Shown here piece by piece: positions 8,571-41,567 of a stretch of DNA of 64,000 nt. Source of the stretch: Thermacetogenium phaeum DSM 12270 (lineage in GTDB: Bacteria; Bacillota; DSM-12270; Thermacetogeniales; Thermacetogeniaceae); the NCBI RefSeq assembly GCF_000305935.1, contig NC_018870.1, positions 2,031,001-2,095,000 on the forward strand. The letters are read 5' to 3'. A program made the translations under genes and the position numbers. The notes below the pieces were generated by a model that was not told where the DNA came from, made no database searches, and worked only from the letters and a program-made list of their open reading frames with translations. Numbering within the stretch: the stretch's first letter is position 1; each line of letters starts with the position of its first letter.

Positions 8571-8626
8571 TCTGTTCGAAATACCCTAACACTGTTTTGA
8601 GATATGAAAAGAGGTTTATAGCACAC

Positions 8627-9274
8627 ATGGAACAGGTAATAGACTTCGTGAGGTATTTTTGGGAGACAAAAAGTGATATAGCCATTTTGACGGGTCAACA
8701 TCTTTGGCTCTCATTCCTGGGGGTACTCATTGGCACCCTAACCGCTGTCCCTCTTGGAATAATCATTTCTCGCAGTCCAAAACTGAGTGCTCTGGTAATT
8801 GATATGGCAGGAATTCTGTATACTGTTCCTTCCCTGGCGATGTTAGGCTTTCTCCTTCCATTTCTGGGGTTGGGATGGCTTCCGACGGTTGTGGCGCTAG
8901 TAATATACTCCTGGTTGCCGGTTTTACGAAACACATGTGCAGGATTGGCCGGAATAGACCCGGCAGTAAAGGAAGCCGCTATTGGAATGGGAGCCACTCC
9001 GTTTCAACTTCTCGTCAGGGTTGAACTTCCGCTAGCATTTCCCGTAATTATGGCCAGCGTGCGGACTATTACCGTCCTGACCGTTGGGATAGCAACGTTT
9101 GGTGCCCTTGTCGGAGGAGGCGGCTTAGGAGAGCTGATTTTTACCGGGATTTCAATGATGGACAACCGAATGGTACTGGCAGGAACCATTCCCGTCGCAT
9201 TAATGGCTGTATTGTTTGACCAAATACTGGGTTATGTTGAACGTCACCTCAGGATGAAGGCAGGGCTGGCTTAA
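8627..9274 (+). CDS. OpuC-type betaine/quaternary-amine ABC importer, permease 1
   Basis: This integral membrane subunit has about five or six helices and the binding-protein-dependent transport EAA loop KEAAIGMGATPFQLLVRVELPLAFP at residues ~115-140, which docks on the ATPase. LSFLGVLIGTLTAVPLGI and GALVGGGGLGELIFTGI are typical of OpuCB/OpuCD-type permeases. I chose ATG 8627, with AGAGG upstream, over a TTG at 8597. It opens a four-gene operon, permease-binding protein-ATPase-permease, with gaps of 89, 20 and 12 bases. Confidence 0.9.
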   Translation: MEQVIDFVRYFWETKSDIAILTGQHLWLSFLGVLIGTLTAVPLGIIISRSPKLSALVIDMAGILYTVPSLAMLGFLLPFLGLGWLPTVVALVIYSWLPVLRNTCAGLAGIDPAVKEAAIGMGATPFQLLVRVELPLAFPVIMASVRTITVLTVGIATFGALVGGGGLGELIFTGISMMDNRMVLAGTIPVALMAVLFDQILGYVERHLRMKAGLA

Positions 9275-9363
9275 CAGTAAAACTGTAATTAAGTGTTTAG
9301 TTTTTTGGTCTCACAAAACCTAAAATTTCTATCAAAATCATCAAAAGGGAGTTGAATTTATTT

Positions 9364-10278
9364 ATGATGAAATGGCGTAAGTCAATATGCTGGGCTATCT
9401 TGTTGGTTTTTATCTTCTCAATAGGGTTTGTTGGCGGCTGCGGAAAGGAAGAAGCTCAGACCTCAGAGGACAAAATAGTGATTGCCAGCAAGCAATTCGC
9501 CGAATCATATATTTTGGCTCATATGGCTGCAATTCTCCTAAAAGAGAAAGCAGGTTTAGATGTGGACACGAGCAAAATCGGGATGGGCGCAACTGAACTC
9601 TTGCATCCCGCTCTGGTGTCAGGGCAAATCGATCTCTATCCGGAATATACCGGTACTGCGTGGATGGTGGTGTTAAAACAACCCGTACTGCACGATAGGG
9701 AGGAGATTTATAACAGGGTTAAGGAGGACTACCAGGACAAATTTAAAATCGCCTGTCTCCCGCCGCTTGGCTTCCAGAATACTTTTGCTATAGCAATGCC
9801 AAAGGAAAAGGCAGAAGAGCTGAATATCACCACAATATCAGATTTAGCCAAGCACCCTGGATTAACCCTGGTTGGTGACTCTACAACCTGGACGAGACCC
9901 GACGTGTATCCAGGGCTCCAGAAAACTTACGGATTAAATCTCAAAAAGAAGATGGTTGATACCAATTTCTTCTATGAAGCTCTTGCGCAGGGACAGGGGG
10001 ACGTTACCACCTGCTTTTCAACTGACGGACGTTTGAAAGAGTACAACTTCACGGTGCTGCAGGATGATAAAAACTTTTTCCCGCCCTATGATGCAATGTA
10101 CGTCGTGCGAAGTGAGATTCTGAAAAAACACCCTGAAATAGAAGAGAAAGCCTTGAAGCCTCTTTTCGGAGCTATTGATGAAAAAACGATGATAGATCTG
10201 AACTATCAGGTTGAGGTGGAGAAAAAAGACCCTGCTGAGGTAGCAAGAGAATTCTTGAAATCCAAAGGACTCATATAG
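9364..10278 (+). CDS. OpuC-type substrate-binding lipoprotein
   Basis: A signal peptide ending in the lipobox GFVGGC (Cys at about residue 26) anchors this extracellular binding protein. The mature part is an OpuAC-like domain: KIVIASKQFAESYILAHMAA, GATELLHPALVSGQIDLYPEYTGTAW, then GDVTTCFSTDGRLKEYNFTVLQDD. These proteins capture glycine betaine, choline, carnitine or related trimethylammonium compounds in an aromatic cage; the exact ligand cannot be read from sequence. I chose ATG 9364, since the TTG at 9352 touches the GGGAG site. The ATPase follows after 20 bases. Confidence 0.9.
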   Translation: MMKWRKSICWAILLVFIFSIGFVGGCGKEEAQTSEDKIVIASKQFAESYILAHMAAILLKEKAGLDVDTSKIGMGATELLHPALVSGQIDLYPEYTGTAWMVVLKQPVLHDREEIYNRVKEDYQDKFKIACLPPLGFQNTFAIAMPKEKAEELNITTISDLAKHPGLTLVGDSTTWTRPDVYPGLQKTYGLNLKKKMVDTNFFYEALAQGQGDVTTCFSTDGRLKEYNFTVLQDDKNFFPPYDAMYVVRSEILKKHPEIEEKALKPLFGAIDEKTMIDLNYQVEVEKKDPAEVAREFLKSKGLI

Positions 10279-10298
10279 GCTGAAAGGCGGCGAAGGGA

Positions 10299-11405
10299 AT
10301 GAAGTACAATAACGTAATGGTAGCACTTGAAAATGTAAGCAAGGTTTACGGCAACGATAAAGTAGTAGATGGAGTGAGTTTCGGAGTAAAAAAAGGTGAA
10401 ATATTTGTCCTGATTGGGCCCTCCGGGTGTGGCAAAACAACCACTCTCAAGATGATCAACCAGCTGATACCACATAGTGAAGGTAAAATTTTCGTAAAAG
10501 GTGAGGATGTGACGAAGCTCGACCCGGTCGAGCTTCGTCGCTCAATTGGCTATGTAATCCAATACATCGGCTTGTTACCCCATTTGAAGATCAGGGATAA
10601 CATCGCTTTCGTCCTCCAGCTCAAAAAGTATCCTAAAAAGAAACAGAGAGAGCGTGCAGAGGAACTCATTCAAACGGTTGGGCTTCCTGTGAGTTATCTC
10701 GATCGTTATCCGCGGGAGTTAAGTGGGGGACAGCAACAGAGGGTTGGCGTGGCAAGGGCCTTAGCTGCTGATCCGGAAATATTGCTAATGGATGAACCTT
10801 TTGGTGCTGTGGATCCAATTGCCCGGGGGCAACTTCAAAATGAGTTGTTGAAGCTACAGGAAACAATCCAAAAAACCATCATTTTCGTCACACATGACAT
10901 CCAGGAAGCATTTAAACTGGGCAATCGAATTGCCATCATGCGAAAGGGTAAACTCATTACAACGGGAACAGCTATGGAGATCGTAAAAGAAGAGGATGAG
11001 TTCGTCAGGAGATTTATTGGTAAGAACGCCATCTTCGATGCTCTCAATGCCGTTCCGATAGCTCAAATAATTGACAGGAGTGCCCCCCGGCTTTTCATTG
11101 AGGAAAAGACATTACCCGTCGAAGAGCTTTCCAAAGAGCAGAAATGGGAGTTTGCGTTTCTTGTGGATAAAAACAATTCGTGTTTAGGATACGTTAATTT
11201 TAATGATCTGGATGCAGGTAGAAAAATCAGAGAAGAAAAAATTCTGCCATTACCGTCGACGTGTCTGGAAAGCAGGGTGTCAGTGAAAAGAGCCATCGAG
11301 GAAATGCTTTGGGGAGGGCGAACGTGGTTGCCGGTTGTTGACAATGAAAACAAATTTTTGGGGATTGTAACATTTGAAGGCTGCGTGTCCCTGGTAACGT
11401 CATAA
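10299..11405 (+). CDS. OpuC-type ABC importer ATPase with tandem CBS domains
   Basis: The ATPase carries Walker A GPSGCGKTTT (about residue 38), signature LSGGQQQR (about 140), Walker B ILLMDEPFGAVD (about 160) and the switch histidine in VTHDIQEAF. After about residue 250 come two CBS-like repeats (the last around RTWLPVVDNENKFLGIVTFEG), which in this family sense ionic strength or nucleotides and gate transport. The length of 368 aa is normal. The binding protein ends 20 bases upstream and the second permease begins 12 bases downstream. Confidence 0.93.
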   Translation: MKYNNVMVALENVSKVYGNDKVVDGVSFGVKKGEIFVLIGPSGCGKTTTLKMINQLIPHSEGKIFVKGEDVTKLDPVELRRSIGYVIQYIGLLPHLKIRDNIAFVLQLKKYPKKKQRERAEELIQTVGLPVSYLDRYPRELSGGQQQRVGVARALAADPEILLMDEPFGAVDPIARGQLQNELLKLQETIQKTIIFVTHDIQEAFKLGNRIAIMRKGKLITTGTAMEIVKEEDEFVRRFIGKNAIFDALNAVPIAQIIDRSAPRLFIEEKTLPVEELSKEQKWEFAFLVDKNNSCLGYVNFNDLDAGRKIREEKILPLPSTCLESRVSVKRAIEEMLWGGRTWLPVVDNENKFLGIVTFEGCVSLVTS

Positions 11406-11417
11406 GGAGGAAATTTT

Positions 11418-12077
11418 GTGAAATTCGATGTTTTTGTGGAAGCATGGCAGTTTCTTGTTACGAAGAAAGACGTTGTTTTTTCAGCTCTCATCAGCCACGT
11501 CATGCTCGTTATTTGGGCTAGTCTCTTTGCTGTGTCGCTAGGTGTGATTATCGGTATTTTTATATCACGAAACAAGAAACTTCGTGATATTGTGATAGGA
11601 GTTGTCGGTGTTCTCTATACCATCCCTATTCTTGCACTCTTCGGGTTTCTGATACCGATTATGGGTATCGGTGCAAAACCGGCAATTATTGCTTTAACCA
11701 TTTATGGGATATTGCCGGTAACAAGGAATACCTGTGTTGGGATCGAACAGGTGTCTCCTGCTGCTAAGGAGGCTGCCTTAGGAATGGGAGCAAACAGGTG
11801 GCAATTGCTTTTCCGGGTTGAGTTGCCGCTTGCCTTTCCTGTAATATTTGCGGGAATACGCACTTCGATGGTAATGAACTTTTCAGTAGCCACATATGCA
11901 ATTTTCATCGGTGGTGGGGGAATGGGCGGTATTATTATGCAGGGAATGCGAACCTATAATGACAGCATGCTTATAGCAGGAACTGTGGTCGTTGCTGTTG
12001 CCACCATTCTTTTGGACAGGATCATTGGCCAGTTTGAACGTCAAGTAGACAGGCGTTATGGATTAGAAAGGCTCTAA
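11418..12077 (+). CDS. OpuC-type betaine ABC importer, permease 2
   Basis: This is a second six-helix permease with the EAA loop KEAALGMGANRWQLLFRVELPLAFP and the glycine-rich FIGGGGMGGIIMQGM, closely similar to permease 1. The two would form the heterodimeric channel. The GTG start has a strong AAGGAGGA six bases upstream. It ends the operon; no clear terminator follows. Confidence 0.9.
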   Translation: MKFDVFVEAWQFLVTKKDVVFSALISHVMLVIWASLFAVSLGVIIGIFISRNKKLRDIVIGVVGVLYTIPILALFGFLIPIMGIGAKPAIIALTIYGILPVTRNTCVGIEQVSPAAKEAALGMGANRWQLLFRVELPLAFPVIFAGIRTSMVMNFSVATYAIFIGGGGMGGIIMQGMRTYNDSMLIAGTVVVAVATILLDRIIGQFERQVDRRYGLERL

Positions 12078-14347: not shown

Positions 14348-15277
14348 TCACTCTGGGGCATCGAACAGCCTCCGCTCCCCGCCGGTCAAGAAGCTCCTCG
14401 GCTCCTCCCCGACCAGGCCGACTATTCCGTACTCCCCGGTCAACGGGTCGAAAACGTAATCTTTAAGAAGGCGGAAGTTCTTGATTTCCCCCGTGCTGCT
14501 GACGTGGATGCGCGGCCCCGTGCAGCGGCACCGCTCCTCCCCGATGAAGATCCTCTTTTCACCCGCCGGTGTAATCGGCAGATCCTGTTCGATTACCTCC
14601 CGGACCAGGCGCTCCACCAGGGTGAGGTTCACCTGCGGGGGGTTCTGGTAGTAGCAAAGCATAAAGCCGTGGCGCACGTCCCCGTGGTCGTCGGCAGGGG
14701 GGTGCCCCATCTGTTCCAGCACCTTCTGGGTGATGTCTTCTGCCGAATGGGCCATCTTGCGGTAGCGCAGGGAGGGGAAAACGATGGACTTGATCTCCTC
14801 CGGGTACGGGCCGAAGATCCCCGGTCTGGCGATGATCACCTCTTCCCCTACCCCGACCAGAACATGGGCGTTCCTTTTGATAAAGGGATAAAGCATCTCA
14901 AAGTGCTCCACCACCACCCGACAACCTTCGAAAACCGCCTTTGTGACCGCTTCGGCGAGAAGGCCGGGTTGAGTAAAAGCCATTTCGAATCTGACGTCCA
15001 AATGATAGGTATGGTGTTCGAAGTCGCCCCTTTCGGCGTCATGCAGCAGCGGCAGAGGGCGCACATTAATCCTCTCGTCATCGTTGGAAAGCTCCAGGCC
15101 GGGAAACATCCCCCGGATCAACAGAGACTTCCCCGCTCCGGCGTCACCGATCACCCCGATGAGCAGGTCGTCGGCGTCCAGGTAGCGCTGGGTCAAGTGA
15201 GCCCCCAGCTCGTGGATTCTCTTTTTTCCGCGCGGAGCAAAGTAAACTGAATGCATCAAATACTCATGAACCTTCAT
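14348..15277 (-). CDS. P-loop protein of the glutamate-mutase cluster (AlaRS second additional domain-like)
   Basis: This ~309-aa protein has a P-loop GDAGAGKSLLIRGMFPG near residue 38 and a histidine-rich middle (DAERGDFEHHTYHLDVRFEM) recalling threonyl/alanyl-tRNA-synthetase accessory domains. Databases carry a family of this kind under the name alanine-tRNA synthetase second additional domain. EERCRCTGPRIHVSSTGEI near the C-terminus may bind metal. It is the last gene of the large operon; its start (ATG 15277, GGGGGG six bases upstream) lies inside the DUF4387 gene, so translation is coupled. The function is unknown. A chaperone or cofactor-insertion role for the neighbouring enzymes is only a guess. 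Confidence 0.6.
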   Translation of the reverse strand: MKVHEYLMHSVYFAPRGKKRIHELGAHLTQRYLDADDLLIGVIGDAGAGKSLLIRGMFPGLELSNDDERINVRPLPLLHDAERGDFEHHTYHLDVRFEMAFTQPGLLAEAVTKAVFEGCRVVVEHFEMLYPFIKRNAHVLVGVGEEVIIARPGIFGPYPEEIKSIVFPSLRYRKMAHSAEDITQKVLEQMGHPPADDHGDVRHGFMLCYYQNPPQVNLTLVERLVREVIEQDLPITPAGEKRIFIGEERCRCTGPRIHVSSTGEIKNFRLLKDYVFDPLTGEYGIVGLVGEEPRSFLTGGERRLFDAPE

Positions 15278-15599
15278 CCTCATCCCCCCAGGGCAGACAC
15301 AAATCCAGCAGCGGAGCGTGCTGCTGCGCCCCGTAGATGTCCCTTTCCCCCGGATCCCCACAGGGGAGAGGCCTCTTCATGGTGGCCTTAAAAGCCAAAG
15401 CTGGATCGAAGTAGACCACCTCCAGGATGTCCTCCTCGGGCACCCCGTAGAGGCGGGCGATCAAGGCGGCGTTGAGTCTGCCGTTCCTCTTTACCCGTTC
15501 GTAGCTCTCCCGATCCTTGAAGATGATATCCAGGGTTAACTCATAGGGCCCGGCGTTCTTGGTTCGGATCACCTGGGCCAGTTCCACCAGCGGTTTCAC
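15264..15599 (-). CDS. DUF4387 family small protein, 111 aa
   Basis: The core KPLVELAQVIRTKNAGPYELTLDIIFKD, followed by LNAALIARLYGVPEEDILEVVYFDPALAFKATMKRP, is the DUF4387 pattern, always found beside or fused to an AtuA-like protein. The GTG start at 15599 overlaps the upstream stop as GTGA and has GGAGGT upstream, so the two are translationally coupled and probably form one enzyme. The chemistry is not established to my knowledge. The position after methylaspartate ammonia-lyase suggests handling of mesaconate or citramalate, which is inference. Confidence 0.8.
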   Translation of the reverse strand: MKPLVELAQVIRTKNAGPYELTLDIIFKDRESYERVKRNGRLNAALIARLYGVPEEDILEVVYFDPALAFKATMKRPLPCGDPGERDIYGAQQHAPLLDLCLPWGDEDEGS

Positions 15600-16954
15600 G
15601 ACCGCACCTCCTCGAAGCTGACCGGGAAGATCTCCCGGGGGTGAGACAGTGTGAGCAGATGGTGCACCGAAAAGACGTAGGCAGCGCCGGTCTTGAAATC
15701 CGAAGGAGAAAAGGGAAAGGCCAGGTTCCCGGCGGTGGCCAGCCTCCCGGGGAAACCGTAGTGCAGCAAGGTGGACCGGGCGAAGCCGCACACCGCTTCC
15801 GCCAGCTCCTCCCTCTCCGCCACCGCCTCCAGGACGATCCCCACCTCATGCCCCGCTACGGGGCGGGGCTCCTGTTTCCCCATCACACCGTCCCTGCCGT
15901 AGACGTGAAAGGCCAGGCGGAACCTCCGGCGCTCGGAACTGAAGTTGTCCTCGGTGCGTTCACGCACCCCCGCCAGGATCTCCTCCAGAGCGGAGATAAA
16001 TCTGGGGTCGCGGGCGCCGGCAATAGAAACCACACGGTAGCCGATCTTCCTCGCCCCTTCAACCTTAACCCTGTAGGGGGAGACCGGACGGAAGCGGCTT
16101 CCCGCAACGGCCACCCTGCGGCCGTTGACCTGCCGGAAGGTCGTCCCCTGCAAATCCAGGACGCCGCCGGGGCCAGGCAGCAGATAGGGGTTGCTCTTTT
16201 CGTAGAGGGTGTGGGCGGCCACCGAGGCCGTGGTGGCCCGCCTTTCCGGACTGGCCGCCTCCACCAGAAAGCGCCTCTTCTCCAGAAAACCGATCATGCA
16301 GTCGCTGCCGCTCCCGGGAACGGCGGCGATGGCGGCGCATTCCAGGATCTTGCCCAGGTGCAGGGAGAGCCCCGGATCGTAGCCCTCTCTGATGGGGAGG
16401 GCGGCGAACACCGCCGGGTCATAGCAGCGCCCTGCCAGAACGACCTCCGCCCCTCCGTCCAGGGCTTCGATCAGAGGTTCGACCCCCATCTGGGCGACCA
16501 GGTTGGTGCTTTCGTTGATGGCCTCCTCCGTGAGTTCCGGAACCGGCCCCAGCGGGCTGACCCTCCCCTGCCGGAGCGCCTCAGCAAGTTTCTGCCTGGA
16601 GACATCGGCCGGGATCACCGCCATCCTAAAGGAGAGCCCCTCCTCCTCGGCCACCTCCAGGATGATCCTGCGGCACCACTCCAGGTGCTGCCTGGCCCCG
16701 GAGCCGCCGGCGGTCCCGATCAGCAACGGGATCCGCAGGGTGCGCGCCGCCCGCAGCAGAAAGGTGAGATCCCGCTTGACCGCGCCGCGGGGCACGAAGG
16801 GTTTGCCGGAACCCAGGTAGTAGGGCCCAGGGTCGGTGGAGCCGGCGTCCACGGCGATGACGTGGGGTCTGCAGGAAAGCCCGTTCTCAAAGGAGACCGC
16901 CGGGAACCCGTATCCCAGTATAGCCGTCGGGGAAAGCAAAACCATCTGTTTCAT
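15596..16954 (-). CDS. AtuA-like (DUF1446) protein, 452 aa
   Basis: This belongs to the acyclic-terpene-utilisation AtuA family: VIAVDAGSTDPGPYYLGSG near the start, IGTAGGSGARQHLEW, VVLAGRCYDPAVFAALPI, then EKSNPYLLPGPGGVLDLQGTTF. AtuA proteins are associated with hydration or carbon-skeleton steps on branched unsaturated acids, but the reaction is not settled. Here it sits 16 bases after methylaspartate ammonia-lyase, whose product mesaconate is a branched unsaturated acid. No classical mesaconate hydratase is present in the window. I chose ATG 16954 with AGGGGAG upstream over a GTG at 16963. A length of ~450 aa is usual. Confidence 0.8.
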   Translation of the reverse strand: MKQMVLLSPTAILGYGFPAVSFENGLSCRPHVIAVDAGSTDPGPYYLGSGKPFVPRGAVKRDLTFLLRAARTLRIPLLIGTAGGSGARQHLEWCRRIILEVAEEEGLSFRMAVIPADVSRQKLAEALRQGRVSPLGPVPELTEEAINESTNLVAQMGVEPLIEALDGGAEVVLAGRCYDPAVFAALPIREGYDPGLSLHLGKILECAAIAAVPGSGSDCMIGFLEKRRFLVEAASPERRATTASVAAHTLYEKSNPYLLPGPGGVLDLQGTTFRQVNGRRVAVAGSRFRPVSPYRVKVEGARKIGYRVVSIAGARDPRFISALEEILAGVRERTEDNFSSERRRFRLAFHVYGRDGVMGKQEPRPVAGHEVGIVLEAVAEREELAEAVCGFARSTLLHYGFPGRLATAGNLAFPFSPSDFKTGAAYVFSVHHLLTLSHPREIFPVSFEEVRS

Positions 16955-16970
16955 TGAAATCACATCTCCC

Positions 16971-18227
16971 CTAAATCACATCCCCGCCTCTTTTATAGCG
17001 CAGGATCCGCAAGGCCCTCTGCATTTCATTGACGACCACCATCATCCCTTCATCCACCCCCATCCCGGGCTTGGCCAGCATCTGGTCGGGTCGGGTGGCC
17101 AGGGCTATATGGACACAGACCCTGGCGGAGCGGTCGGTCTCATTGCAGGTTCCCCCCAGATAGGCACCGCAGCCGCGCTCCTTGGCGTAGATGACGGCCT
17201 CCACGGTGTTGTTAATACCCCCCAGGTCCGGCGTCTTGACCTGTACCATATGGGCGGCCCCGGCATTTACGAAGTCCCGGACGTCTTCGAGGGTGTTGCA
17301 CCACTCGTCGGCAACGATCTCCACTGATACCCCCTTGACGACCAGCAAAACCTTCAGTCTTTGCAGGCCCTCTATCTGCCCGGCTTTGGAGCCCATGTCG
17401 ATGGGGCCCTCGATCCGCAGCTTGAGGGGAGCGGCCGCCCTCTCCAGACGGGCCAGGTAATCGGCGATCCGCTCGAGATCGTTGTCAAAGGCCAGCCCCA
17501 GAGTACCGTAGACGTCGATGTGCAAGACGGGGCGGTAGTCCTCCCCTGCCAGCTCCCGCGCCCGCCTGCTCAACCAGCCGACGTAATCACAGAGTTTTTC
17601 CCCGTTCCTGCCCAGCTTCGAATCCACGTTGTTGATCAGCCCGTGCGGCAGAACGTCGGCCCGCTTGATGATAGCCTTATCCGCGTTGGTAAACCGCTCG
17701 TCACCGGTCTGGGCGAAGACCGGAACGGGCTCCAGGGTCAGGCCGGTTCCGTATTCGTCGGAGAGCACCTCGCACATCAGCCTGCGCTCTTTGAGGGCGA
17801 CGGCATGGAGCAGAGCCTGGGTCAATCCGTAGAGAACGGCGGTGTGCAGGCGCCTGCCGTCCCTTGTGGTAAAGGAGCCGATCTCCTCCGCCATCTCCCG
17901 GAATCCCGTGATCTCTCTCCCTGCAAGCCTTTCTCCGAGGTATTCCTCCACCAGGGGAATGTAGCTTTCCGCCAGAAACAGCGGATCCCGCCCCCCGGCG
18001 CCCGAGTACTGCACGGCGGCGCAGTCCCCGTAGGCCACCTCCCCCCCGGAGAGGAGCAGCATGATGCTGAGAGACTCCCCCCGCTGCCTGACGGAGGTAA
18101 ATCCGGGGGTGCGCGGTTCCCCGCGGTAGGCCGCTCCGTCTTCCCGGGCGCCCATTTTGATCGCCAGCTGGTCGTCAAAGAAAAAACCAGTCAGCCCCGG
18201 AGATGCCAATACCTTTTCGATGCGCAT
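16971..18227 (-). CDS. mal: Methylaspartate ammonia-lyase
   Basis: This enolase-superfamily enzyme removes ammonia from (2S,3S)-3-methylaspartate to give mesaconate. Visible active-site elements are VLPHGLINNV (the His acid/base), LHIDVYGTLG and RIEGPIDMG and VADEWCNT (Mg ligands D, E, D) and the catalytic lysine in VQVKTPDLGG at about residue 334. Its 418 aa is the normal length. It follows glmE by 7 bases, as in other glutamate-mutase operons, so the pathway from glutamate through methylaspartate is present in full up to mesaconate. Confidence 0.96.
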   Translation of the reverse strand: MRIEKVLASPGLTGFFFDDQLAIKMGAREDGAAYRGEPRTPGFTSVRQRGESLSIMLLLSGGEVAYGDCAAVQYSGAGGRDPLFLAESYIPLVEEYLGERLAGREITGFREMAEEIGSFTTRDGRRLHTAVLYGLTQALLHAVALKERRLMCEVLSDEYGTGLTLEPVPVFAQTGDERFTNADKAIIKRADVLPHGLINNVDSKLGRNGEKLCDYVGWLSRRARELAGEDYRPVLHIDVYGTLGLAFDNDLERIADYLARLERAAAPLKLRIEGPIDMGSKAGQIEGLQRLKVLLVVKGVSVEIVADEWCNTLEDVRDFVNAGAAHMVQVKTPDLGGINNTVEAVIYAKERGCGAYLGGTCNETDRSARVCVHIALATRPDQMLAKPGMGVDEGMMVVVNEMQRALRILRYKRGGDVI

Positions 18228-18234: not shown

Positions 18235-19686
18235 TCACCTCGGCTTGCCCACCAGCCGGCCTTTGCTGATGGCGTAGATGTCGTCGATCACCATTCTCAA
18301 ACCGGGCTCCCGCTTCTCCTGCCGGCCGCGCTCCTCGATCTTCTTCCTGTGAAAATCCTTGATTTCGGCGGATAAGGGGATGTTGCCCGTGTCCAGGAGC
18401 CTGATCGCCCCACTGGCATCGCGCACCGGCATGATGCCTCCCCGGGCAGCCCTGGAGGGAGCAAAAGGAATGTCGAGGACACCCGCCTCAAACGCCCTGA
18501 CTGTTCCCACGGCCAGGTCCCCCTCCCCCAGCTCCAGTACCCTGTCGAACACTTCCCGGACCTCCCTTTCAATAACGCTTTCCTCCTCGGCCAGCTCCGG
18601 AGTCTCCGGAACCCGCTGCTCCGCCAGCATCCGGAGCACCTGGCGGGTGCAGAGCAGCCCGGCCAGGTTGGCCTCCAGGCTGGGCACACCCATGGCCTCG
18701 TGAGGTGTTTTCACGATCACTTTATTGGCACCGGCAAGAGCCGCAGTGGCCGCTCCCCAGGCAATCACACCCAAAGCGCGCGGTTCCTCCTGGGGGAAAC
18801 CTCCCATCCACTGATGAAAGACCGTCGTCAGGAGGACGTCTGAATAGCCGAAGCGGTCCAGATAGCTTCTTCCCAACCGGGCCAGGGTCCGCAGTGCTGC
18901 GGCATCCTGGATCAGGTTGCCCCCCTGCCCGTAGCCTATAGCGATGCTCTTGACTCCCTGCCCGGCCGCCAGCAAGGCCTCGATAATCCCCACCACGTGG
19001 GAGATAAAAGGTGGAACCAGCGTCCCCGTAAGGGGGCCGAACATCTCCCGGTTGATGATGATGCCGTGCTCGGCGTAGAACCCGCAGAGGCGGTCCACAT
19101 ACTGCCAGTGGAGCAGAGAGCGCTCCAGGGGCACGTCCTTGGCGTAGGGGATATTGTAGGAAATTCCACCGCCCTCAAAATCCGTAAACCCGGCCGCCAG
19201 GGTTATTTCCGCCAAAAGCCGGGCGTCGGGAGTGCCGTGCCGCACCTGTACCGGAACGCCGGTCGCCTCGATGATCCGGCGGCAGTTCTTCACCCCGTAG
19301 TTAACCGCCGGGAGCCCGTTGAGCAGGGAGCGGTCAGCCGCTTTGGATTCCTTGATTCCCCTGGCCGCCTCGGAATAACGGTTCTGCCTGGTGTAGGAAT
19401 CGACGGTGGTGGGTAAAAAGTCGGCCTCGCCCTCCTTTTCCAGAGATCTCAGCAGGGCAATGTGCTCGTCGATCAGGGCAACACCGGCCCGCGGCTGCAG
19501 GTAAATGCGGCCCTCAGCCTGACCTTTCAGGAGCTTATAATAAGCCACCTTCTCTTTGGGTAAACCCCTGTGATAGGCCAGCGCCTCTTCGAGATCCACC
19601 CCCCTGCCGCTCGGCCAGGCAGCCAGCACCTCAGTGCGCTCCTGAAAGAACCGTTCGATCTCCCACTTGCGGTCCTGCAGGCTCAA
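18235..19686 (-). CDS. glmE: Glutamate mutase epsilon (large, catalytic) subunit, 483 aa
   Basis: The enzyme rearranges L-glutamate to 3-methylaspartate using adenosylcobalamin. The sequence has the TIM-barrel features of the family: QPRAGVALIDEH, the TPDARLLAEI and GGGISYNIPYAKDVPLERSLLHWQYVDR substrate region, and GYGQGGNLIQDAAALR. I set the start at TTG 19686: it overlaps the mutL stop (TTGA), has GGGAGG eight bases upstream and gives exactly the usual ~483 aa. A longer frame from 19749 would sit inside mutL. Confidence 0.95.
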   Translation of the reverse strand: MSLQDRKWEIERFFQERTEVLAAWPSGRGVDLEEALAYHRGLPKEKVAYYKLLKGQAEGRIYLQPRAGVALIDEHIALLRSLEKEGEADFLPTTVDSYTRQNRYSEAARGIKESKAADRSLLNGLPAVNYGVKNCRRIIEATGVPVQVRHGTPDARLLAEITLAAGFTDFEGGGISYNIPYAKDVPLERSLLHWQYVDRLCGFYAEHGIIINREMFGPLTGTLVPPFISHVVGIIEALLAAGQGVKSIAIGYGQGGNLIQDAAALRTLARLGRSYLDRFGYSDVLLTTVFHQWMGGFPQEEPRALGVIAWGAATAALAGANKVIVKTPHEAMGVPSLEANLAGLLCTRQVLRMLAEQRVPETPELAEEESVIEREVREVFDRVLELGEGDLAVGTVRAFEAGVLDIPFAPSRAARGGIMPVRDASGAIRLLDTGNIPLSAEIKDFHRKKIEERGRQEKREPGLRMVIDDIYAISKGRLVGKPR

Positions 19687-21059
19687 AAAGCACACCTCCC
19701 AGCATGCTCCAGCGTTTCTCTCAACAGCACCTGCGCCGCTTCCGGACATACGTCAACCAGGAGTCCGACCGCAGCCAATAGATAGGAGCCGTCCAGGAAA
19801 AGGTCCGGACGGCGCGGGCTTAAGACCAAAGGGTCGCTCTGCCTGACGGCCTCTTGAAGCAGGGCAGCGGGATCTGCAGCATGCACCAGCACCCCTCCCG
19901 TGCCTGCCAGCACCTCCACTCCGGTCAGGTCTTTACCCTCCTGAATCCAGATCCTTCCCTCCGGGGTGTAGGCCTCTCTTAAACGGCCGGCATGCCGCCG
20001 CAGGGCTTCCCGGATACAGGCTGTTGCCAGTGCCCGGTCGAATTCCGCCGTCCTCTCGTCCTGGGGTATGGCTCCCCGACCGGCATTTATCCTGGCGGCA
20101 TAACTTCTGAGTTCTTCCCTGCTTACCGCAAAGGGAAGAAGAGACAGTACGGCGTCTTCGCCTACTGCCTCCAGTAAAGAAAGGACGCTCACCCGAACCC
20201 CCAGATCCCCTTCGACGGTCCGCTTGGCGAAAGGCTCAGGTGGCCCCTTGTAGACGCACCCCGGTGTCAGCGGTTTTCCCTCGCAGAAGGAATGCACATC
20301 CGTAGTGGCCCCGCCGACGTCAACGAGAACGACATCCTTTCCCAGGGTTTTCTGCAGCAGCTCTCCGGCCTTCATCACCGCCAGGGGGGTGGGCATGGCC
20401 AGCCCGAACTCCTGCTGGATCTGCTCCAGCCCTCTGGCCTTGGTGATCTCGTCCAGATAGAGTTCCCTGATCGCCTTCCTGGCGGGCTCCGGGTTGAGCA
20501 CGTTGATCTCGGGCAAGACGTTCTCGGTTACCACCACCCGGGGAACACTGCCTTCCAGAAGGGAAGCTGCCCGCGGCGCCGCCTCCTTGTTTCCGGCCAC
20601 CACCACCGGTACCCCCGGCCCCGAGCGGGCGATCAGGGAGGCGTTCTTAAGGAGGGTTCTGCGCTCCCCTCCATCGGTACCCCCGGCCAACAGCAGCAGA
20701 TCCGGCCGCAAGGCATTGATCTCCTCGATCTCCCGGCGGGTGAGGGTGTAGGAAAAACTCGCCACGACCCTGGCACCGGCTCCCAGCGCGGCCTCCCGGG
20801 CCGCCTTCACCGTCAGAGCAGGCACCAGCCCGACGGCCACGATTCTCAAACCACCTGCGGCAGAACTGCAGGCCCGTTTGAGCCTGACCCCCTCCAAAAG
20901 CCCCGAAGGAAATGCCTTCAGGGCAGCGAACAACCCCTCCCTGAGATCCGTCTCCACCGTGGTCGGGGCCTGAGCGGTACCCAGCAGTGCCGGCGGATCG
21001 AGGCTCACCAGAGTCACCTTGGTAAAGGTGCTGCCGAAATCGATCAACAAAGCCTTCAT
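19683..21059 (-). CDS. glmL: MutL/GlmL, glutamate-mutase-associated ASKHA ATPase
   Basis: This 458-aa protein starts with the actin-like phosphate motif [15 protein letters not shown] and has [19 protein letters not shown] and [17 protein letters not shown]. It is the MutL family found between glmS and glmE, and is thought to act as a chaperone or reactivase for the B12 mutase. The start ATG 21059 overlaps the glmS stop as ATGA, and its own stop overlaps glmE, so all three are coupled. Confidence 0.93.
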
Positions 21060-21469
21060 AGACCGAGATCCCTCTTCAAATCGGCGATGGCCACCTCGGG
21101 AAGGGTTCCCGGCGGGTACACCCGGTCAAACCCCATATCCCTGAAGAGCCGCTCTACTTCGGCAAAAGTCCTCTTGCCCACGACCAGGTTTCCCCCTACA
21201 TAGAGCAAGATCTCCCCGATGCCGGACTCGCGGCACTTATCCCGCAAACCCCGGCAGTCCAGCTCACCGTGGCCGTAGAGGGAGGAAACCAGGATGGCCG
21301 CGGCATCGCTTTCAATGGCGGCGTTGATGAACTCCTCCTGGGAAACCATCACTCCCAGGTTGACCACCTTAAATCCGGCCTGCCTGAGGCTCATTTCCAG
21401 GATCCTGTTGCCAACCGCGTGCACATCGGCCCCAATCACACCCAGCACTACTGTGTCCTTCCGCGACAC
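21056..21469 (-). CDS. glmS: Glutamate mutase sigma (small, B12-binding) subunit
   Basis: This 137-aa Rossmann-like cobalamin domain has the base-off motif DVHAVGN near residue 15 and [15 protein letters not shown] further on; the histidine is the lower cobalt ligand. It pairs with glmE to form the mutase. The GTG start at 21469 has GAGGAGG nine bases upstream. A 67-base gap separates it from the corrinoid protein gene upstream. Confidence 0.95.
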
Positions 21470-21536: not shown

Positions 21537-22169
21537 TTAATTCACCAGTTGCTTGCAGAGCTCCACAGCCGCTCCGGCATCCGGCGCATAGCCGTCGGCT
21601 CCGATCTCCTCTGTATACTCCCGGGTAACCGGGGCACCTCCGATGATCACCTTAACCGTATCCCGCAGCCCCTCTTTTTCCAGGGCGGCGATGACCTCCT
21701 GCATAACCGGCATGGTGGTGGTCAAAAGGGCGGACATTCCCACCAAATGCGGCTGATGTTCCTTTACCGCCTGCACGAACTTTTCCGGCGCTGCGTCCAC
21801 ACCCAAGTCGACGATGCTGAAACCGCTGCTCTCCAGCATCATAATCACCAGGTTCTTGCCGATATCGTGCAGGTCACCCTTGACAGAACCGATAACCACC
21901 TTCCCTGCGGCGGGCACCTCGGCTCCACCGATCCTCTCTTTCGCCAGTTCGACGCCCGCCTTCATGGCCTGGGCGGACATCATCATTTCCGGCACGAACA
22001 TCTCTCCCTCTTTAAAGCGGACCCCCACCTCATTGATTCCGGGGATCAGTGCCTCATTGATAACCCGGAGCGGCTCTTCTCCCGCTTCCAGCAGCCGTTT
22101 CGTGGCCTCCTTCACCCCTTGAACATCACCTGCTATTACCAGATCGATCAGTTCCTTCAGGCTGCTCAT
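21537..22169 (-). CDS. Corrinoid protein paired with MttB-type methyltransferases, 210 aa
   Basis: The N-terminal helical cap (KRLLEAGEEPLRVINEALIPGINEVGVRFKEGEMFVPEMMMSAQAMKAG) is followed by the B12-binding domain with DLHDIGKN at about residue 103. It carries methyl groups from the two MttB proteins encoded just upstream to a tetrahydrofolate methyltransferase that is not in the window. The start ATG 22169 has GGAGGG upstream. It differs clearly from the corrinoid protein at 5478, so the organism keeps at least two. Confidence 0.93.
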   Translation of the reverse strand: MSSLKELIDLVIAGDVQGVKEATKRLLEAGEEPLRVINEALIPGINEVGVRFKEGEMFVPEMMMSAQAMKAGVELAKERIGGAEVPAAGKVVIGSVKGDLHDIGKNLVIMMLESSGFSIVDLGVDAAPEKFVQAVKEHQPHLVGMSALLTTTMPVMQEVIAALEKEGLRDTVKVIIGGAPVTREYTEEIGADGYAPDAGAAVELCKQLVN

Positions 22170-22231
22170 GCTTCATCCCTCCATTTTTTCAGGTTAAAAT
22201 TAATCGGCAGGTTCAACCGGCTACCGCAAAG

Positions 22232-23683
22232 TCAGCCGCCGAGCCTTTCCTCCGCCCGGCGCAGGATGCCGTCGATCTCCCGTTCGGTATCTGGAGCGAG
22301 AGGCGTCGGTCGGTAATTATCCATGATCTCGCGCAGCTTCTCCCGGATCCGGGTACCCATGGTCTTGGAGCCTCCTGCCGCCCAGGTCTCGTAGTTATTG
22401 AAATCGGAAAGGGTGCTCCCCCAGCTCTCCCTGAAGTGCCTGGCGGTGTGTTCGTCCCCCAGGAAGTTGCCTCCGGGGCCCACACGCATGATGGCCTCTA
22501 CGGCCAGGTACTCGGGGGTGGTATTCACCCCTTTGAGGAGGTACCTTACCCGTGAGACAACCTCATCGGTCAACACCAGCATTTCCAGACAGCCGGTGCG
22601 CCCGGACTCGATGTAAAAGACGTCATGCATCAGGTTGCACCCCTGCAGAGCGCCCATCAGGGTAAACATGGTTCCCTCGACCACGGCCTGCTCGTCAAAA
22701 ACCTTGGAACTGCCGCACCCTGCATAACCCCAGGAAGGCAGGGAGTAATAGCGGGCCAGATCGCACAGGCAACCCTGGAGCAGGAGCGCCTCCGGTACTG
22801 CGTACACCGCCATCATCGTGCGCATGTCCAGAGGAGAATCGCCGTATCCGTAGAGGAAAGGTGCGCCCGGATTCTTCAGCTGGTGCACCACCAGCCCGCA
22901 GAGGGCCTCGGCATTGGCCTGGACAACCGTTCCGGCAACCGTAATCGGGGTGGAGGCGCCGGCCACGGCACCGCAGGCGAAATTGACCGGAATCCGGTTT
23001 TCGGCGGCCAGCAGGAGTTTGTCCACCGATTCAAAGGGAAGCTGCAGCGGGGAGGTCGGCTCGCAGTAGAGAACAAAAAGCGGCCGGTGCTTGAGGGCCT
23101 CCTTCCCGCCGGCGGCAGCAGCAGCCATCTCGAAGATATCCTCTACCGTCCCCCTGTCCTCGGCGATCACCACCTGCGGTTTGATGCTGTTTTTGAGCAT
23201 CAGAGCGTACTGAGCCCTGTTGATCATCCGTCTGTCGACGTCAGACAGCAGCCCCATCGACATAACGAAGTCGAGGTTGGGGAGGGCGTCAACCACCTGC
23301 AGCGCCATCGCAACATCGGCACTCTGCCAGGGTCTGCGCTCCCCTGTAAAGGGATCGAGGTAGACCAGGGTATCGGAACCCGTCCCAAAGTAGACGTTGG
23401 ACTTCTCCAGCCACAGGGCCGGCTCGCCCAACCTGTTGTAAAGGGTGATCCTCGAAGGGGCGGTGGCGAGCGCCCGTTTCACCAAGGTATTGGGGATATA
23501 GGTCCGGCCGTCGCTGCCTGTGTAGGCCCCCGCCCGCTTCAAGAGATCCGCCGCCTCGTCGTGGTGCACCACAACGCCCACCTCTTCCAGGACGCGGCAG
23601 CTGGCGCTGTGGATCTCCCGGATCTGTTCCGGGGAAAGGGTTCGAAAAGCCATCCCCGCTCCGTGGCTGCTGGCGTATTCCAT
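22232..23683 (-). CDS. MttB-superfamily corrinoid methyltransferase, non-pyrrolysine, 483 aa
   Basis: The sequence follows the trimethylamine methyltransferase family (PF06253): LSPEQIREIHSASCRVLEEVGV, YFGTGSDTLVYLDPFTGERRPW, KPQVVIAEDRGTVEDIFEMAAAAAGG, and RVGPGGNFLGDEHTARHFRESW near the end. There is no in-frame amber codon, so this is a pyrrolysine-free member. Known members of that group demethylate glycine betaine, proline betaine, carnitine or related quaternary amines. I chose ATG 23683 (AGGGGGCGG upstream), 11 bases after the first MttB. Its substrate cannot be read from sequence. Confidence 0.93.
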   Translation of the reverse strand: MEYASSHGAGMAFRTLSPEQIREIHSASCRVLEEVGVVVHHDEAADLLKRAGAYTGSDGRTYIPNTLVKRALATAPSRITLYNRLGEPALWLEKSNVYFGTGSDTLVYLDPFTGERRPWQSADVAMALQVVDALPNLDFVMSMGLLSDVDRRMINRAQYALMLKNSIKPQVVIAEDRGTVEDIFEMAAAAAGGKEALKHRPLFVLYCEPTSPLQLPFESVDKLLLAAENRIPVNFACGAVAGASTPITVAGTVVQANAEALCGLVVHQLKNPGAPFLYGYGDSPLDMRTMMAVYAVPEALLLQGCLCDLARYYSLPSWGYAGCGSSKVFDEQAVVEGTMFTLMGALQGCNLMHDVFYIESGRTGCLEMLVLTDEVVSRVRYLLKGVNTTPEYLAVEAIMRVGPGGNFLGDEHTARHFRESWGSTLSDFNNYETWAAGGSKTMGTRIREKLREIMDNYRPTPLAPDTEREIDGILRRAEERLGG

Positions 23684-23694
23684 CGTTCCGCCCC

Positions 23695-25155
23695 CTAATC
23701 CCGGCACTCCGCTTCCCGGCGCCTGATGATCGCCTGCATCTCTTCCACCGCACCGTCGGGGAGGGCGGCGGCTCGATGTTCTTCCAGTATCTCCCTGACC
23801 TTCGCCGTGGCGAGATCCAGCGGTGTCTTTTTCCCCCTGGCCTCCCACTGTTCCCAGAGGTACCTTACAAAGAAGCGGGGTGACCAGATCTCTTCCCGGA
23901 AGTACTTAAAGGTATGGCCGTGCCCCATGAAGTTGCCTCCGGGGCCTACGTCATGGATGCAATCAACCGCCAGGTGCTCCGGCGTGATCCTGGTTCCGGC
24001 TCCGGTGTAGCGGGCCATGTCAATGATATCATCGCAGATGGCCAGGAAGGGGAGATATCCCGTCTTGCCTCCCTCCAGATAGCCCACGTCGTGCACCAGG
24101 TTGCATCCCTCCAGCTGGGTCAGCATGATGGTCATGGCGGCTTCCACCCCTGCCTGCACGTCGGGCAGAGGGGCATTGACACAGCCCGCCTCGGTGAAAT
24201 TGGGAAGCCCGTAGAACTGGGCGAGCTGCGTCATGACGGCGTAGTTCATGGAGGTCTCCGGCGCCCCGTAGAGGGTGACGGTGGTCTTCATGTCCATCGG
24301 GGTTGCTCCCCCTCCGATGATGATCGGAGCACCCTTCTTCTTCAGCTGCGCCATTACCACTCCCGCCAGCCCCTCGGCGTTGATCTGGGCGATACACCCT
24401 GCCTTGGTTACCGGCGTCGTCGCCCCGGCCAGGACCCCGGAGGTATAGACGACGGGAATGTCGTATTCAAAGCACTTGAACATCTTGGCAACCCCCTCAT
24501 CGGTATGGATAAGGGGGGAGATGGGCTCGGAGTAGAGAATGATGTAGGGGTTGCTCCTCAGGTTGTCCTCTCCGCCGACACAGGCGGCCGCCATCTCGAT
24601 CACTGCTTCGGTGTTTGCTGCATTGTGGGCGGTGAAAATAACCGGTTTGCTGCTCTCTCGGGTCATTGCTTCGAACTGGTGCAGGTCGCTGACACGGGGA
24701 TTGGTATCGGAGGCAATGGCATAGCTCATAATGAAATCATAGTTCGGCAGGTAGTCCATCAATCTGGCCGCCCGGCTGACGTCTTCCTTGCAGGACACCC
24801 TTCTCTCTTCTGTATCTATATCTACGGTAAAGGGAAGATCCGAGCCCGTCCCGTAATAAACACGGTTCTTCTCCAGCGGCATCACCCGCCTGCCGAGCCT
24901 GTCGGCGATGCAAATGCGCTTGGGCGCCAGGCGCAGGCATTCCTCTACCAGCCAGGCCGGGATCCACACCCGGTTCTCCCGGACCCGGCAGCCCGCATCC
25001 TTTAGCAGTTTCAGTGCCTCCTGGTTCTGCACAACCGTCCCGGTACGCTCCAGGATCTCCAAGGAAGCATAATGGATCTGCTCCAGCTGGGAATCGGAGA
25101 CCCAGGTCAGTCGCGGTGTTATCTGTTCCTCATAGTTTGATCTGTATCTATCCAC
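23695..25155 (-). CDS. Second MttB-superfamily corrinoid methyltransferase, non-pyrrolysine, 486 aa
   Basis: This paralogue of the next gene has LSDSQLEQIHYASLEI-like N-terminal helices, YYGTGSDLPFTVDIDTEERRV, IIIGGGATPMDMKTTVTLYGAPE and HDVGPGGNFMGHGHTFKYFREE. It too lacks an in-frame amber codon. Divergence between the two MttB proteins suggests different substrates or successive methyl removals. It is the first gene of the 10.9-kb operon; its GTG start has GAGGAGG upstream, and a sigma-54-type promoter lies ~76 bases before it. Confidence 0.93.
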   Translation of the reverse strand: MDRYRSNYEEQITPRLTWVSDSQLEQIHYASLEILERTGTVVQNQEALKLLKDAGCRVRENRVWIPAWLVEECLRLAPKRICIADRLGRRVMPLEKNRVYYGTGSDLPFTVDIDTEERRVSCKEDVSRAARLMDYLPNYDFIMSYAIASDTNPRVSDLHQFEAMTRESSKPVIFTAHNAANTEAVIEMAAACVGGEDNLRSNPYIILYSEPISPLIHTDEGVAKMFKCFEYDIPVVYTSGVLAGATTPVTKAGCIAQINAEGLAGVVMAQLKKKGAPIIIGGGATPMDMKTTVTLYGAPETSMNYAVMTQLAQFYGLPNFTEAGCVNAPLPDVQAGVEAAMTIMLTQLEGCNLVHDVGYLEGGKTGYLPFLAICDDIIDMARYTGAGTRITPEHLAVDCIHDVGPGGNFMGHGHTFKYFREEIWSPRFFVRYLWEQWEARGKKTPLDLATAKVREILEEHRAAALPDGAVEEMQAIIRRREAECRD

Positions 25156-25586: not shown

Positions 25587-26594
25587 TCAATCAAGGAGAA
25601 AGCCCTTTTTCAGCGGATCGCGACGGTCGATTACCAACTGATTGAACCCCGTGATAAATACCTCACCCTGAATAACCGGAACAACGGCCGTAAAATCGCC
25701 TACTTTCACCTCTTTGATCAGCTTTCCGTAAAAAAGCGTTTTGGCAGGGCTCTGATGGACGAATGTCTCGTTCAGTTTCAGCTCACCCCTGGCATAGTGC
25801 CTGGCCATACGGGCGCACGTACCTGTCCCGCAAGGGGAACGATCGACCTGGGTATTTCCGAAAACCACGAATCCCCGGTAAGGCGCGCCCGGTTTGTCCG
25901 GCTGCTGGCAAAACATGAGATCATTGAGAAAAGTGATCTGGGGGGCCAGGGGGTGCTGCACCTTGACCTGCTCTCTGGCAACCTGCAGGATTGCGGTCCC
26001 CAGCCGGGCCAGCCGGTGGACCGGTAGGGCGTCGATACCGGCTGCAACCTGCTCTATATCAACCATTACAAAAAAGTTTCCTCCCCAAGCGATATCCACC
26101 GTAATCCGCCCGATCTCCGGAACTTCCAAGGGGATATTCTGTCGATACAGGAATGAGGGTACGTTTTCCAGGGATACCGACAAAACTTCCCCATCCCTTA
26201 CTTCCACGTAGGTCTTCACCAGGCCGGCAGGGGTCTCCTGCACTACCGTCGTCACGGGCTCAACCGCCGGAACCCGACCGGTTTCCACCAGGACCTTGCC
26301 CACCGCCAGCGCCCCCGCTCCGCACATGGGTGCGTAGTAGCCGCAATCTATGTAAAAAACCCCGACGTGGGCCTCAGGGTGAGTGGGTTCCGTCAAGACC
26401 GCTCCGACCATCTCACGATGCCCTCTGGGTTCCATCATGGTGCTGGTGCGGATCCAGTCATAGTGCCGCTGCATATACAGCATCTTCTCCAGCATGGTGT
26501 TGCCATGTAGGCGGGGAAGGCCTCCGGAGAAGATCCTGGTGGGTTCACCTGCAGTATGTGAATCGATCACACTCAATACGAGCTCCAACTGCAC
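25587..26594 (-). CDS. Proline racemase / hydroxyproline epimerase family enzyme, 335 aa
   Basis: The family isomerises proline or 4-hydroxyproline at C-alpha with two cysteines. Both are here: MCGAGALAVG at about residue 88 and DRSPCGTGTCARM at about 250, together with SVIDSHTAGEPTRI and PRGHREMVGAVL. Unusually, the histidine that follows the first cysteine in known racemases (MCGH) is alanine. I chose GTG 26594, six bases after GGGAGGG; ATG 26600 is too close. The neighbours are a symporter upstream and two MttB genes downstream, so an N-methylated proline derivative is a possible substrate, though this is inference. Confidence 0.88.
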   Translation of the reverse strand: MQLELVLSVIDSHTAGEPTRIFSGGLPRLHGNTMLEKMLYMQRHYDWIRTSTMMEPRGHREMVGAVLTEPTHPEAHVGVFYIDCGYYAPMCGAGALAVGKVLVETGRVPAVEPVTTVVQETPAGLVKTYVEVRDGEVLSVSLENVPSFLYRQNIPLEVPEIGRITVDIAWGGNFFVMVDIEQVAAGIDALPVHRLARLGTAILQVAREQVKVQHPLAPQITFLNDLMFCQQPDKPGAPYRGFVVFGNTQVDRSPCGTGTCARMARHYARGELKLNETFVHQSPAKTLFYGKLIKEVKVGDFTAVVPVIQGEVFITGFNQLVIDRRDPLKKGFLLD

Positions 26595-26615
26595 TCTCAT
26601 CCCTCCCACATGATA

Positions 26616-28399: not shown

Positions 28400-30436
28400 C
28401 TATCCGCTGTTTTGTTTCAGCTTTTCAGCTACCAGTTCATCGACCAGTTCCTCGTCGACCAGGTAGGGCAGGGTGATGTGCCCGAAACCCTCGTAGTTTT
28501 TGTTGAACTCGATGCTGGTTTCGATGGAGTGCTCGTTGCGCGCCCAGGAGCGACGGGCTACTCCGCACATCACGTCCCACAGCAAGGAGGACTTGATGAT
28601 CTCGTCGACCCTTTCGCTGCCGTCCAAAACAAGGCCGAAACCTCCGTTGATCGCCTTGCCGATGCCGACTCCTCCCCCGTTGTGCAGGGCAACCAGGCTC
28701 ATCCCCCTGGCGGCGTTCCCGGCAAAGCACTGAACCGCCATGTCGGCCATGATGTTGCTGCCGTCTTTGATGTTGGCCGTTTCTCTAAATGGGGAATCGG
28801 TGCCGCTGACGTCATGGTGATCCCTGCCGATCATGACCGGGCCGATTTCACCTTTTCTCACCATTTCGTTGAATTTGAGGGCGATCTTCATCCGGCCCTC
28901 AGCGTCCTGATAGAGGATCCTGGCCTGCGATCCGACGACCAGGTTGTTCTTCTCGGCATCCCGGATCCAGATGTAGTTGTCCCGGTCCTGCCCCCTGCGG
29001 CTGGGATCGATGCATTCCATGGCCGCCCTGTCGGTCTTAACCAGGTCTTCGTGCTTGCCGCTCAAACAAACCCATCGGAAGGGCCCGTACCCGTAATCGA
29101 AGAGTTGGGGGCCCATGATGTCCTCAACATACGAGGGCCAGATAAAACCGTCCCTCTCGTCTACTCCGTTTCTGGCGATTTCTTTGACGCCGGCATCAAA
29201 TACTGCCTTCATGAAGGAGTTTCCGTAGTCGAAAAAGTAGGTACCCCGGTCGACCAGGGCTTTGATCAGTTCGTAGTGGCGCCGCAGACTCCGGTCGACA
29301 AGCTCCTTGAATTTTTCCCGGTCGGTGGCCAAAAGCCTGGTTCTTTCCTCAAAGGTCAGACCCTGGGGACAGTAGCCGCCTTCGTAAGCAGCGTGGCAGG
29401 AGGTCTGATCGGAGAGGAGATCGACTTTAATATCATTCCTCACGATGTATTCCAGCAGATCCACTACGTTGCCGTAGTAGGCTATCGAAATGGGTTCCCT
29501 TTTGTGCAGGTATTCGTCTACCGTTCTGAAGATATCGTCAAGGTCATCGGAAACCCGGCTTACCCATTTCTGTTCGTATCGGGTCTGGATTCTGGAGTAG
29601 TCCACTTCGGCGATGACTCCTACCCCACCGGCTATCTCCACGGCCTTGGGCTGGGCGCCGCTCATCCCCCCAAGCCCGGAGGATACGAAGAGATGGCCCC
29701 TCAGGTCGCCGTCTTGCGGTATGCCGAGTTTCAGCCTGCCGGCATTGAGGATGGTGTTGAAGGTGCCGTGGACGATACCCTGCGGACCGATGTACATCCA
29801 GCCCCCGGCGGTCATCTGGCCGTAGTTGGCAACCCCCATCTCTTCGGCAATTTCCCAGTCTTTAAGGTTGTCGTACATCCCGACCATCAGGGCATTGGTG
29901 ATGATGACCCGCGGAGCGTCCGGCTTCGAGGGAAACAGCCCGAGGGGATGCCCTGACATCACCACCAGGGTCTGACTGTCGGTCATGACCTCCAGGTACT
30001 TCTTGAGCAGCCGGTACTGCATCCAGTTCTGGCAGACTCTCCCCGTCTCGCCGTAGGTCACCAGCTCGTAAGGATAAAGGGCGACCTCAAAGTCAAGGTT
30101 GTTGTCGATCATCACCTGGAAGGCCTTACCTTCGATACAATTCCCTTCGTACTCGTCGATCGGGCGGGCGTAGATCCTTCCCGGCGGGCGATAGCGGTAG
30201 GCATAGATCCTTCCCCGGGTTAGCAGTTCATCCAGAAATTCCAGTGCCAGCTTTTCATGGAGCTCTTCAGGCACATAGCGAAGGGCGTTTTTTAAGGCAA
30301 TCTTCGTCTGCTCCGGCGTCAGGTTAAACCCCCGGCTGGGCGCCCTCCTGATGCCGGGCACAAACTCCGGCATCTCCGGTAGCTCGCCGTCCAGTTTGAT
30401 CGTCATCGCCCCAGCTATTGTGGCATTGTCAAGCAT
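28400..30436 (-). CDS. hutU: Urocanate hydratase (long form), 678 aa
   Basis: Converts urocanate to imidazolonepropionate with tightly bound NAD+. Diagnostic stretches are NYGQMTAGGWMYIGPQGIVHGT, SSGLGGMSGAQPKAVEIAGG (NAD loop), DQTSCHAAYEGGYCPQG and LHNGGGVGIGKAINGGFGLVLDGS. The long form of ~670 aa is common in Firmicutes and deltaproteobacteria. The start is ATG 30436 with GGGAGGGAAGG upstream. It is monocistronic and ~13 kb from the other hut genes, but carries the same kind of sigma-54 promoter. Confidence 0.96.
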   Translation of the reverse strand: MLDNATIAGAMTIKLDGELPEMPEFVPGIRRAPSRGFNLTPEQTKIALKNALRYVPEELHEKLALEFLDELLTRGRIYAYRYRPPGRIYARPIDEYEGNCIEGKAFQVMIDNNLDFEVALYPYELVTYGETGRVCQNWMQYRLLKKYLEVMTDSQTLVVMSGHPLGLFPSKPDAPRVIITNALMVGMYDNLKDWEIAEEMGVANYGQMTAGGWMYIGPQGIVHGTFNTILNAGRLKLGIPQDGDLRGHLFVSSGLGGMSGAQPKAVEIAGGVGVIAEVDYSRIQTRYEQKWVSRVSDDLDDIFRTVDEYLHKREPISIAYYGNVVDLLEYIVRNDIKVDLLSDQTSCHAAYEGGYCPQGLTFEERTRLLATDREKFKELVDRSLRRHYELIKALVDRGTYFFDYGNSFMKAVFDAGVKEIARNGVDERDGFIWPSYVEDIMGPQLFDYGYGPFRWVCLSGKHEDLVKTDRAAMECIDPSRRGQDRDNYIWIRDAEKNNLVVGSQARILYQDAEGRMKIALKFNEMVRKGEIGPVMIGRDHHDVSGTDSPFRETANIKDGSNIMADMAVQCFAGNAARGMSLVALHNGGGVGIGKAINGGFGLVLDGSERVDEIIKSSLLWDVMCGVARRSWARNEHSIETSIEFNKNYEGFGHITLPYLVDEELVDELVAEKLKQNSG

Positions 30437-30488
30437 TAGACCTTCCCTCCCTGTTCCGACAATCCATTTGAAGACATTATTAATGTTA

Positions 30489-36155: not shown

Positions 36156-36178
36156 CCCCTCTCGAAAAATTTTTTATC

Positions 36179-41558: not shown

Positions 41559-41567
41559 CGCTTCCTT

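Follow-up and report, generated by a model that had tools for sequence, protein, structure and literature searches.

The window analyzed here, a 64,000-nucleotide stretch spanning positions 2,031,001-2,095,000 of the single 2,939,057-base contig of Thermacetogenium phaeum DSM 12270, contains a minus-strand operon that includes four genes of the methylaspartate pathway. These encode glutamate mutase subunit S (glmS, 21056-21469; both NF002612 and TIGR01501 above cut-off), the glutamate mutase accessory protein (glmL, 19683-21059; NF040745, 544.5 bits against a cut-off of 475), glutamate mutase subunit E (glmE, open reading frame 18235-19749, with the true start probably located inside it; TIGR01503, 720 bits), and methylaspartate ammonia-lyase (mal, 16971-18227; TIGR01502, 575 bits against a cut-off of 286). 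Since each of the four passes curated equivalog models, it is evident that the operon makes mesaconate, as the initial annotation of this region had proposed. The mal stop codon is separated by 7 bases from a gene encoding a member of the AtuA family (PF07287; 15596-16954, with an ATG at 16954 and an alternative GTG at 16963), which is followed by a gene encoding a DUF4387 protein (PF14330; 15264-15608), and the two frames share a GTGA; the gene positions, the overlap, and the placement directly after mal were all as previously described. The AtuA model scores 80 bits (cut-off 22.8) on the 15596-16963 reading frame, covering the protein modestly and only in part, in two stretches, and the DUF4387 model scores 139.5 bits (cut-off 27) on the second frame. 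AtuA and DUF4387 are the only Pfam families found in the two proteins, with no match to the Fumerase or Aconitase families. The window is likewise devoid of aconitase-type, class I fumarase, and CitF genes, which confirms that neither a classical mesaconate hydratase nor a classical citramalate lyase is encoded there. Downstream of the pair, the minus-strand gene at 14348-15283 encodes a conserved operon protein with a TsaE-like P-loop and a C-terminal part resembling AlaX and the second additional domain of AlaRS. No curated family reaches its cut-off for this protein, the Pfam matches to TsaE and tRNA_SAD being weak and below threshold; Foldseek retrieves TsaE and AlaX-like structures, and the protein carries a CTGPRIH...STGEI motif.

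The key to the function of the AtuA-DUF4387 pair comes from a solved structure. Over 431 residues, the AtuA protein shares 57.5% identity (E 2e-167) with chain A of PDB entry 9ERQ, deposited as "Citramalate lyase, subunit A (cmlA)", and the DUF4387 protein shares 57.7% identity over 97 residues (E 1.6e-31) with chain B, deposited as "subunit B (cmlB)". Both alignments span nearly the full length of the subunits, and the predicted fold of the larger one is the same: the AtuA protein as modeled by AlphaFold (pLDDT 92.2) superimposes upon chain A of the related entry 9EVF with a TM score of 0.93 and an rmsd of 2.2, and no other solved structure was retrieved by Foldseek at an E value below 0.001. 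The name citramalate lyase is that of the depositors, taken from their molecule names and the entry title, and our literature search on 9ERQ/9EVF, CmlA, and DUF4387 found no paper describing these structures. CmlAB is a known, but little-described enzyme type, of which the T. phaeum pair is a further example. Invariant residues number 84 in CmlA and 14 in CmlB. Because both subunits are approximately 57% identical to CmlA and CmlB, the pair most likely cleaves (S)-citramalate rather than hydrating mesaconate, even though at this level of identity its substrate could have shifted. Chain A of 9ERQ is 97% identical to the CmlA of Citrobacter loci and 92% identical to that of E. coli, and these Citrobacter loci share the glmS-glmL-glmE-mal-cmlAB arrangement of T. 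phaeum with the addition of a fumarase gene. The T. phaeum system differs in that its host is a thermophilic acetogen and its fumarase gene resides outside of the operon. The AtuA of the Pseudomonas acyclic terpene (Atu) pathway also has PF07287 in common with the T. phaeum protein. To our knowledge, the reaction of this terpene protein is itself not settled, so the family name offers no guide to function here.

A genomic survey provides a second, separate line of evidence. Among 398 genomes of the phylum, 75 encode a strong mal match and 93 encode DUF4387, and the two co-occur in 63 of the 75 mal genomes compared to 30 of the other 323 (Fisher p 1e-37, ignoring kinship). When linkage was defined as a same-strand DUF4387 gene within 12 kb of mal, or a CitF gene within 6 kb of it, 52 of the 75 mal genomes were found to contain a linked DUF4387 and 6 a linked CitF, while none contained both. 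CitF anywhere in the genome is similarly scarce in the DUF4387-linked group (4/52, versus 11/23 of the remaining mal genomes; p 1.7e-4, again ignoring kinship). Class I fumarase behaves differently from CitF: 74 of the 75 mal genomes encode it, and its linkage to mal is seen in 21 of the 52 genomes with a linked DUF4387 as well as in 2 of the 6 with a linked CitF. Fumarase is thus kept in both groups and DUF4387 excludes CitF beside mal, which argues that the pair replaces the lyase and that the hydratase is retained. T. phaeum conforms to this pattern, since its mal operon occupies the genomic place expected of CmlAB: neither CitF, in the window or the whole genome, nor CitE, in the genome, yielded a match. 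A route via citramalyl-CoA lyase was considered and rejected, as the sole HpcH/HpaI match in the genome is pyruvate kinase. The classical citramalate/citrate lyase, CitDEF, as in Clostridium tetanomorphum, occupies the same position of the pathway and is expected to catalyze the same overall reaction, but its subunits are unrelated to the pair. Membership in the CmlAB family, the operon itself, and the substitution for the acyl carrier protein-dependent lyase are therefore all supported by homology together with genomics.

The same gene set is also conserved well beyond the surveyed phylum. Among 80 homologous loci that we fetched, which include those of relatives such as Thermacetogenium sp. 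UBA4966 and Syntrophaceticus, 60 contain mal, and the order glmS-glmL-glmE-mal-cmlA-cmlB is kept in Bacillota, Bacteroidota, Spirochaetes, Planctomycetes, Synergistota, and enterobacteria. Eight loci exhibit the alternative order glmS-glmL-glmE-cmlA-cmlB-mal, in most of which fumA and the TsaE/AlaX-like gene come next. As the order switches while the genes remain the same, it appears that these genes stay together through rearrangement. Of the 60 mal loci, 33, from several phyla, have the TsaE/AlaX-like gene in the vicinity of mal and cmlAB; it directly follows the pair in T. phaeum, whereas it is absent from the enterobacterial cmlAB loci examined.

Mesaconate is most likely hydrated by an enzyme encoded elsewhere in the genome. 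The aconitase-type and fumarase genes of the genome lie at 2.007, 0.935, and 0.387 Mb, and FumAB at 0.387 Mb, which is 1.6 Mb distant from the operon, is the only class I fumarase. The FumA subunit is 79% identical to a FumA that a Syntrophomonadaceae relative encodes within its methylaspartate operon. Furthermore, a tree of 39 FumA sequences places it in a group (support 100/99) with four FumA that are borne on operons in close relatives; as the tree was drawn from loci holding the pair, it indicates kinship to operonic copies, with other fumarases not excluded. The class I fumarase family includes proven mesaconases (PMC4682846), and with moderate confidence we infer that FumAB serves as the mesaconase of this genome. 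The remaining candidates are two LeuCD-like pairs. One is part of the leucine operon, and the other, at 0.935 Mb, lies in an operon with homocitrate/citrate synthase and isocitrate dehydrogenase genes that flank the aconitase-like genes. LeuCD-like hydro-lyases are broad in substrate, so this second pair, located outside of the leucine operon, might be suspected of hydrating mesaconate in place of FumAB. We consider this unlikely, because its own operon already assigns it a job and because LeuCD-like genes are almost never found near mal in the 80 loci, as opposed to FumA, a homologue of which is present in 33 of the 60 with mal. This alternative concerns the hydratase only and leaves the assignment of the lyase untouched.

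Returning to CmlAB, a second alternative is that the T. phaeum pair acts upon a related 2-hydroxy acid and that citramalate is used in another way. AtuA-DUF4387 pairs do occur apart from mal: 30 of the 93 survey genomes with DUF4387 lack a strong mal match, as do 20 of the 80 fetched loci, which indicates that the family is not restricted to citramalate. Moreover, some of the mal-free pairs adjoin a divergent fumarase-like pair. In T. phaeum, however, the pair is inside a mal operon, its closest relatives keep the link to mal, and the genome yielded no further enzyme able to cleave citramalate, all of which render this scenario improbable. As for the mal-free loci themselves, in six of them AtuA-DUF4387 is preceded by one or a pair of divergent fumarase-like genes (37-40% identity in FumA) and neither mal nor glm genes are present; these probably represent a hydratase-lyase module acting on a different 2-hydroxy acid. 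The neighbors of the mal-free pairs that we examined revealed no clear pathway. Least tenable of all is the proposal of the initial annotation that the pair constitutes a novel hydratase of mesaconate. Its position directly after mal in a window without a hydratase gene speaks for this, but we reject it because the pair has no homology to hydro-lyases, its solved relatives bear the name citramalate lyase, with pyruvate, a lyase product, held by one of them, the pair excludes CitF rather than fumarase, and its operons often encode a class I fumarase as well, such as that of E. coli O157:H7 with the mesaconase FumD (PMC4682846). What was observed was right and the reaction guessed from it was wrong: the placement of the pair in the mesaconate branch as a replacement for a classical enzyme holds, and the looser suggestion of some other mesaconate-processing enzyme came close. 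Among the grounds that had been named for abandoning the proposal, a canonical hydratase elsewhere in the genome, which was to be coupled with inactivity of the pair on C5 acids, does appear to exist in the form of FumAB, while a lack of co-occurrence with mal is contradicted by the 63 genomes in which both are present.

Taken together, we are highly confident that the AtuA and DUF4387 proteins constitute a CmlAB-type citramalate lyase converting (S)-citramalate to acetate and pyruvate, with FumAB most likely hydrating mesaconate from elsewhere in the genome, and the pair almost certainly fills the last step of the glutamate-fermenting pathway. We infer both the substrate in this organism and the chemistry. 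With this assignment, many genomes without citF gain a complete methylaspartate pathway, and the misleading labels "acyclic terpene utilization" and "DUF4387" for an enzyme of central fermentation are corrected. The consequences extend to E. coli O157:H7, in which the gene order is glmS-glmL-glmE-mal-AtuA-DUF4387-symporter-class I fumarase-cobO, such that mal adjoins the pair on one side and the class I fumarase gene of the same pathway follows, past a symporter gene, on the other. FumD from this strain is a demonstrated mesaconase/fumarase (PMC4682846), and hence a hydratase, which the T. phaeum pair most likely is not. Because citramalate lyase activity was not found in the fumD study, which described the fate of citramalate as unclear (PMC4682846), the O157:H7 pair is the obvious candidate for the missing citramalate-cleaving step of the fumD cluster. 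AtuA-DUF4387 pairs are encoded by 1,081 of 5,426 complete E. coli genomes, or about a fifth. Among strains NZ_CP122643 and NZ_CP007392, the pair is interrupted by IS1 in one and matches DUF4387 only in part in the other, so that decay of the methylaspartate cluster seems to be under way in some E. coli strains.

Based upon these assignments, a route can be proposed. Glutamate, derived at least partly from histidine, would be rearranged by GlmES and deaminated by Mal to mesaconate, which the class I FumAB would hydrate to (S)-citramalate, and CmlAB is predicted, most likely, to cleave this product to acetate and pyruvate. How CmlAB might accomplish the cleavage is a more speculative matter. In the classical CitDEF lyase, an acyl carrier protein activates the acetyl side as a thioester. 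Entry 9EVF is titled "Citramalate lyase - ADP - pyruvate complex", and although ADP is named in the title only, a CmlAB crystal with both of these ligands suggests the involvement of a nucleotide. The T. phaeum enzyme is a putative binder of adenine nucleotides. Hypothetically, ATP could transiently phosphorylate the acetyl-side carboxylate, with the acyl phosphate replacing the acyl-carrier thioester; C-C cleavage would then give pyruvate and an acetyl phosphate equivalent, the phosphate being returned to ADP or released. Alternatively, ADP could be regulatory or structural. Were a nucleotide to take part in catalysis, this would be a new way to split an unactivated carboxylate. A broader version, in which CmlAB is a new lyase type that phosphorylates the carboxylate via ATP/ADP, the TsaE/AlaX-like neighbor is a third component that maintains or protects the enzyme, and the mal-free pairs cleave other 2-hydroxy acids through identical chemistry, is conceivable, and we advance it only tentatively as it is more apt to fail than to hold.

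The source of the glutamate can be partly read from the remainder of the window, which encodes a histidine-to-glutamate route upstream of the operon on the same strand: hutU, urocanate hydratase, at 28400-30505 (TIGR01228, 443 bits against a cut-off of 375) and an fchA-like gene, ftcD, hutI, and hutH at 40923-45447. The latter three exceed their NCBIfam cut-offs and the fchA-like gene falls below its own (200.9 versus 275 bits). Given hutH, hutI, hutU, and ftcD, histidine can become glutamate and would then be converted to acetate and pyruvate via Glm, Mal, FumAB, and CmlAB. This histidine-methylaspartate coupling is supported by two related loci in which hut/ftcD genes directly adjoin glm-mal-cmlAB. 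Neither mesaconate nor citramalate is mentioned in the T. phaeum genome paper or in the papers on its amino acid use. Several other genes surround the cluster. Directly upstream of glmS (21537-25155, minus strand) are genes for two MttB-type methyltransferases and an MtgC-like corrinoid protein, an arrangement shared with Syntrophaceticus and Thermacetogenium relatives; both methyltransferases score below the trimethylamine equivalog cut-off and are by that score not specific for trimethylamine. On either side of the cluster lies an ABC transporter of the glycine betaine-like OpuC/ProU type (8597-12077, plus strand, and 35223-38759, minus strand), whereas the T. phaeum genome paper describes an organism without betaine use. 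Lastly, a proline racemase-like gene is located at 25587-26609.
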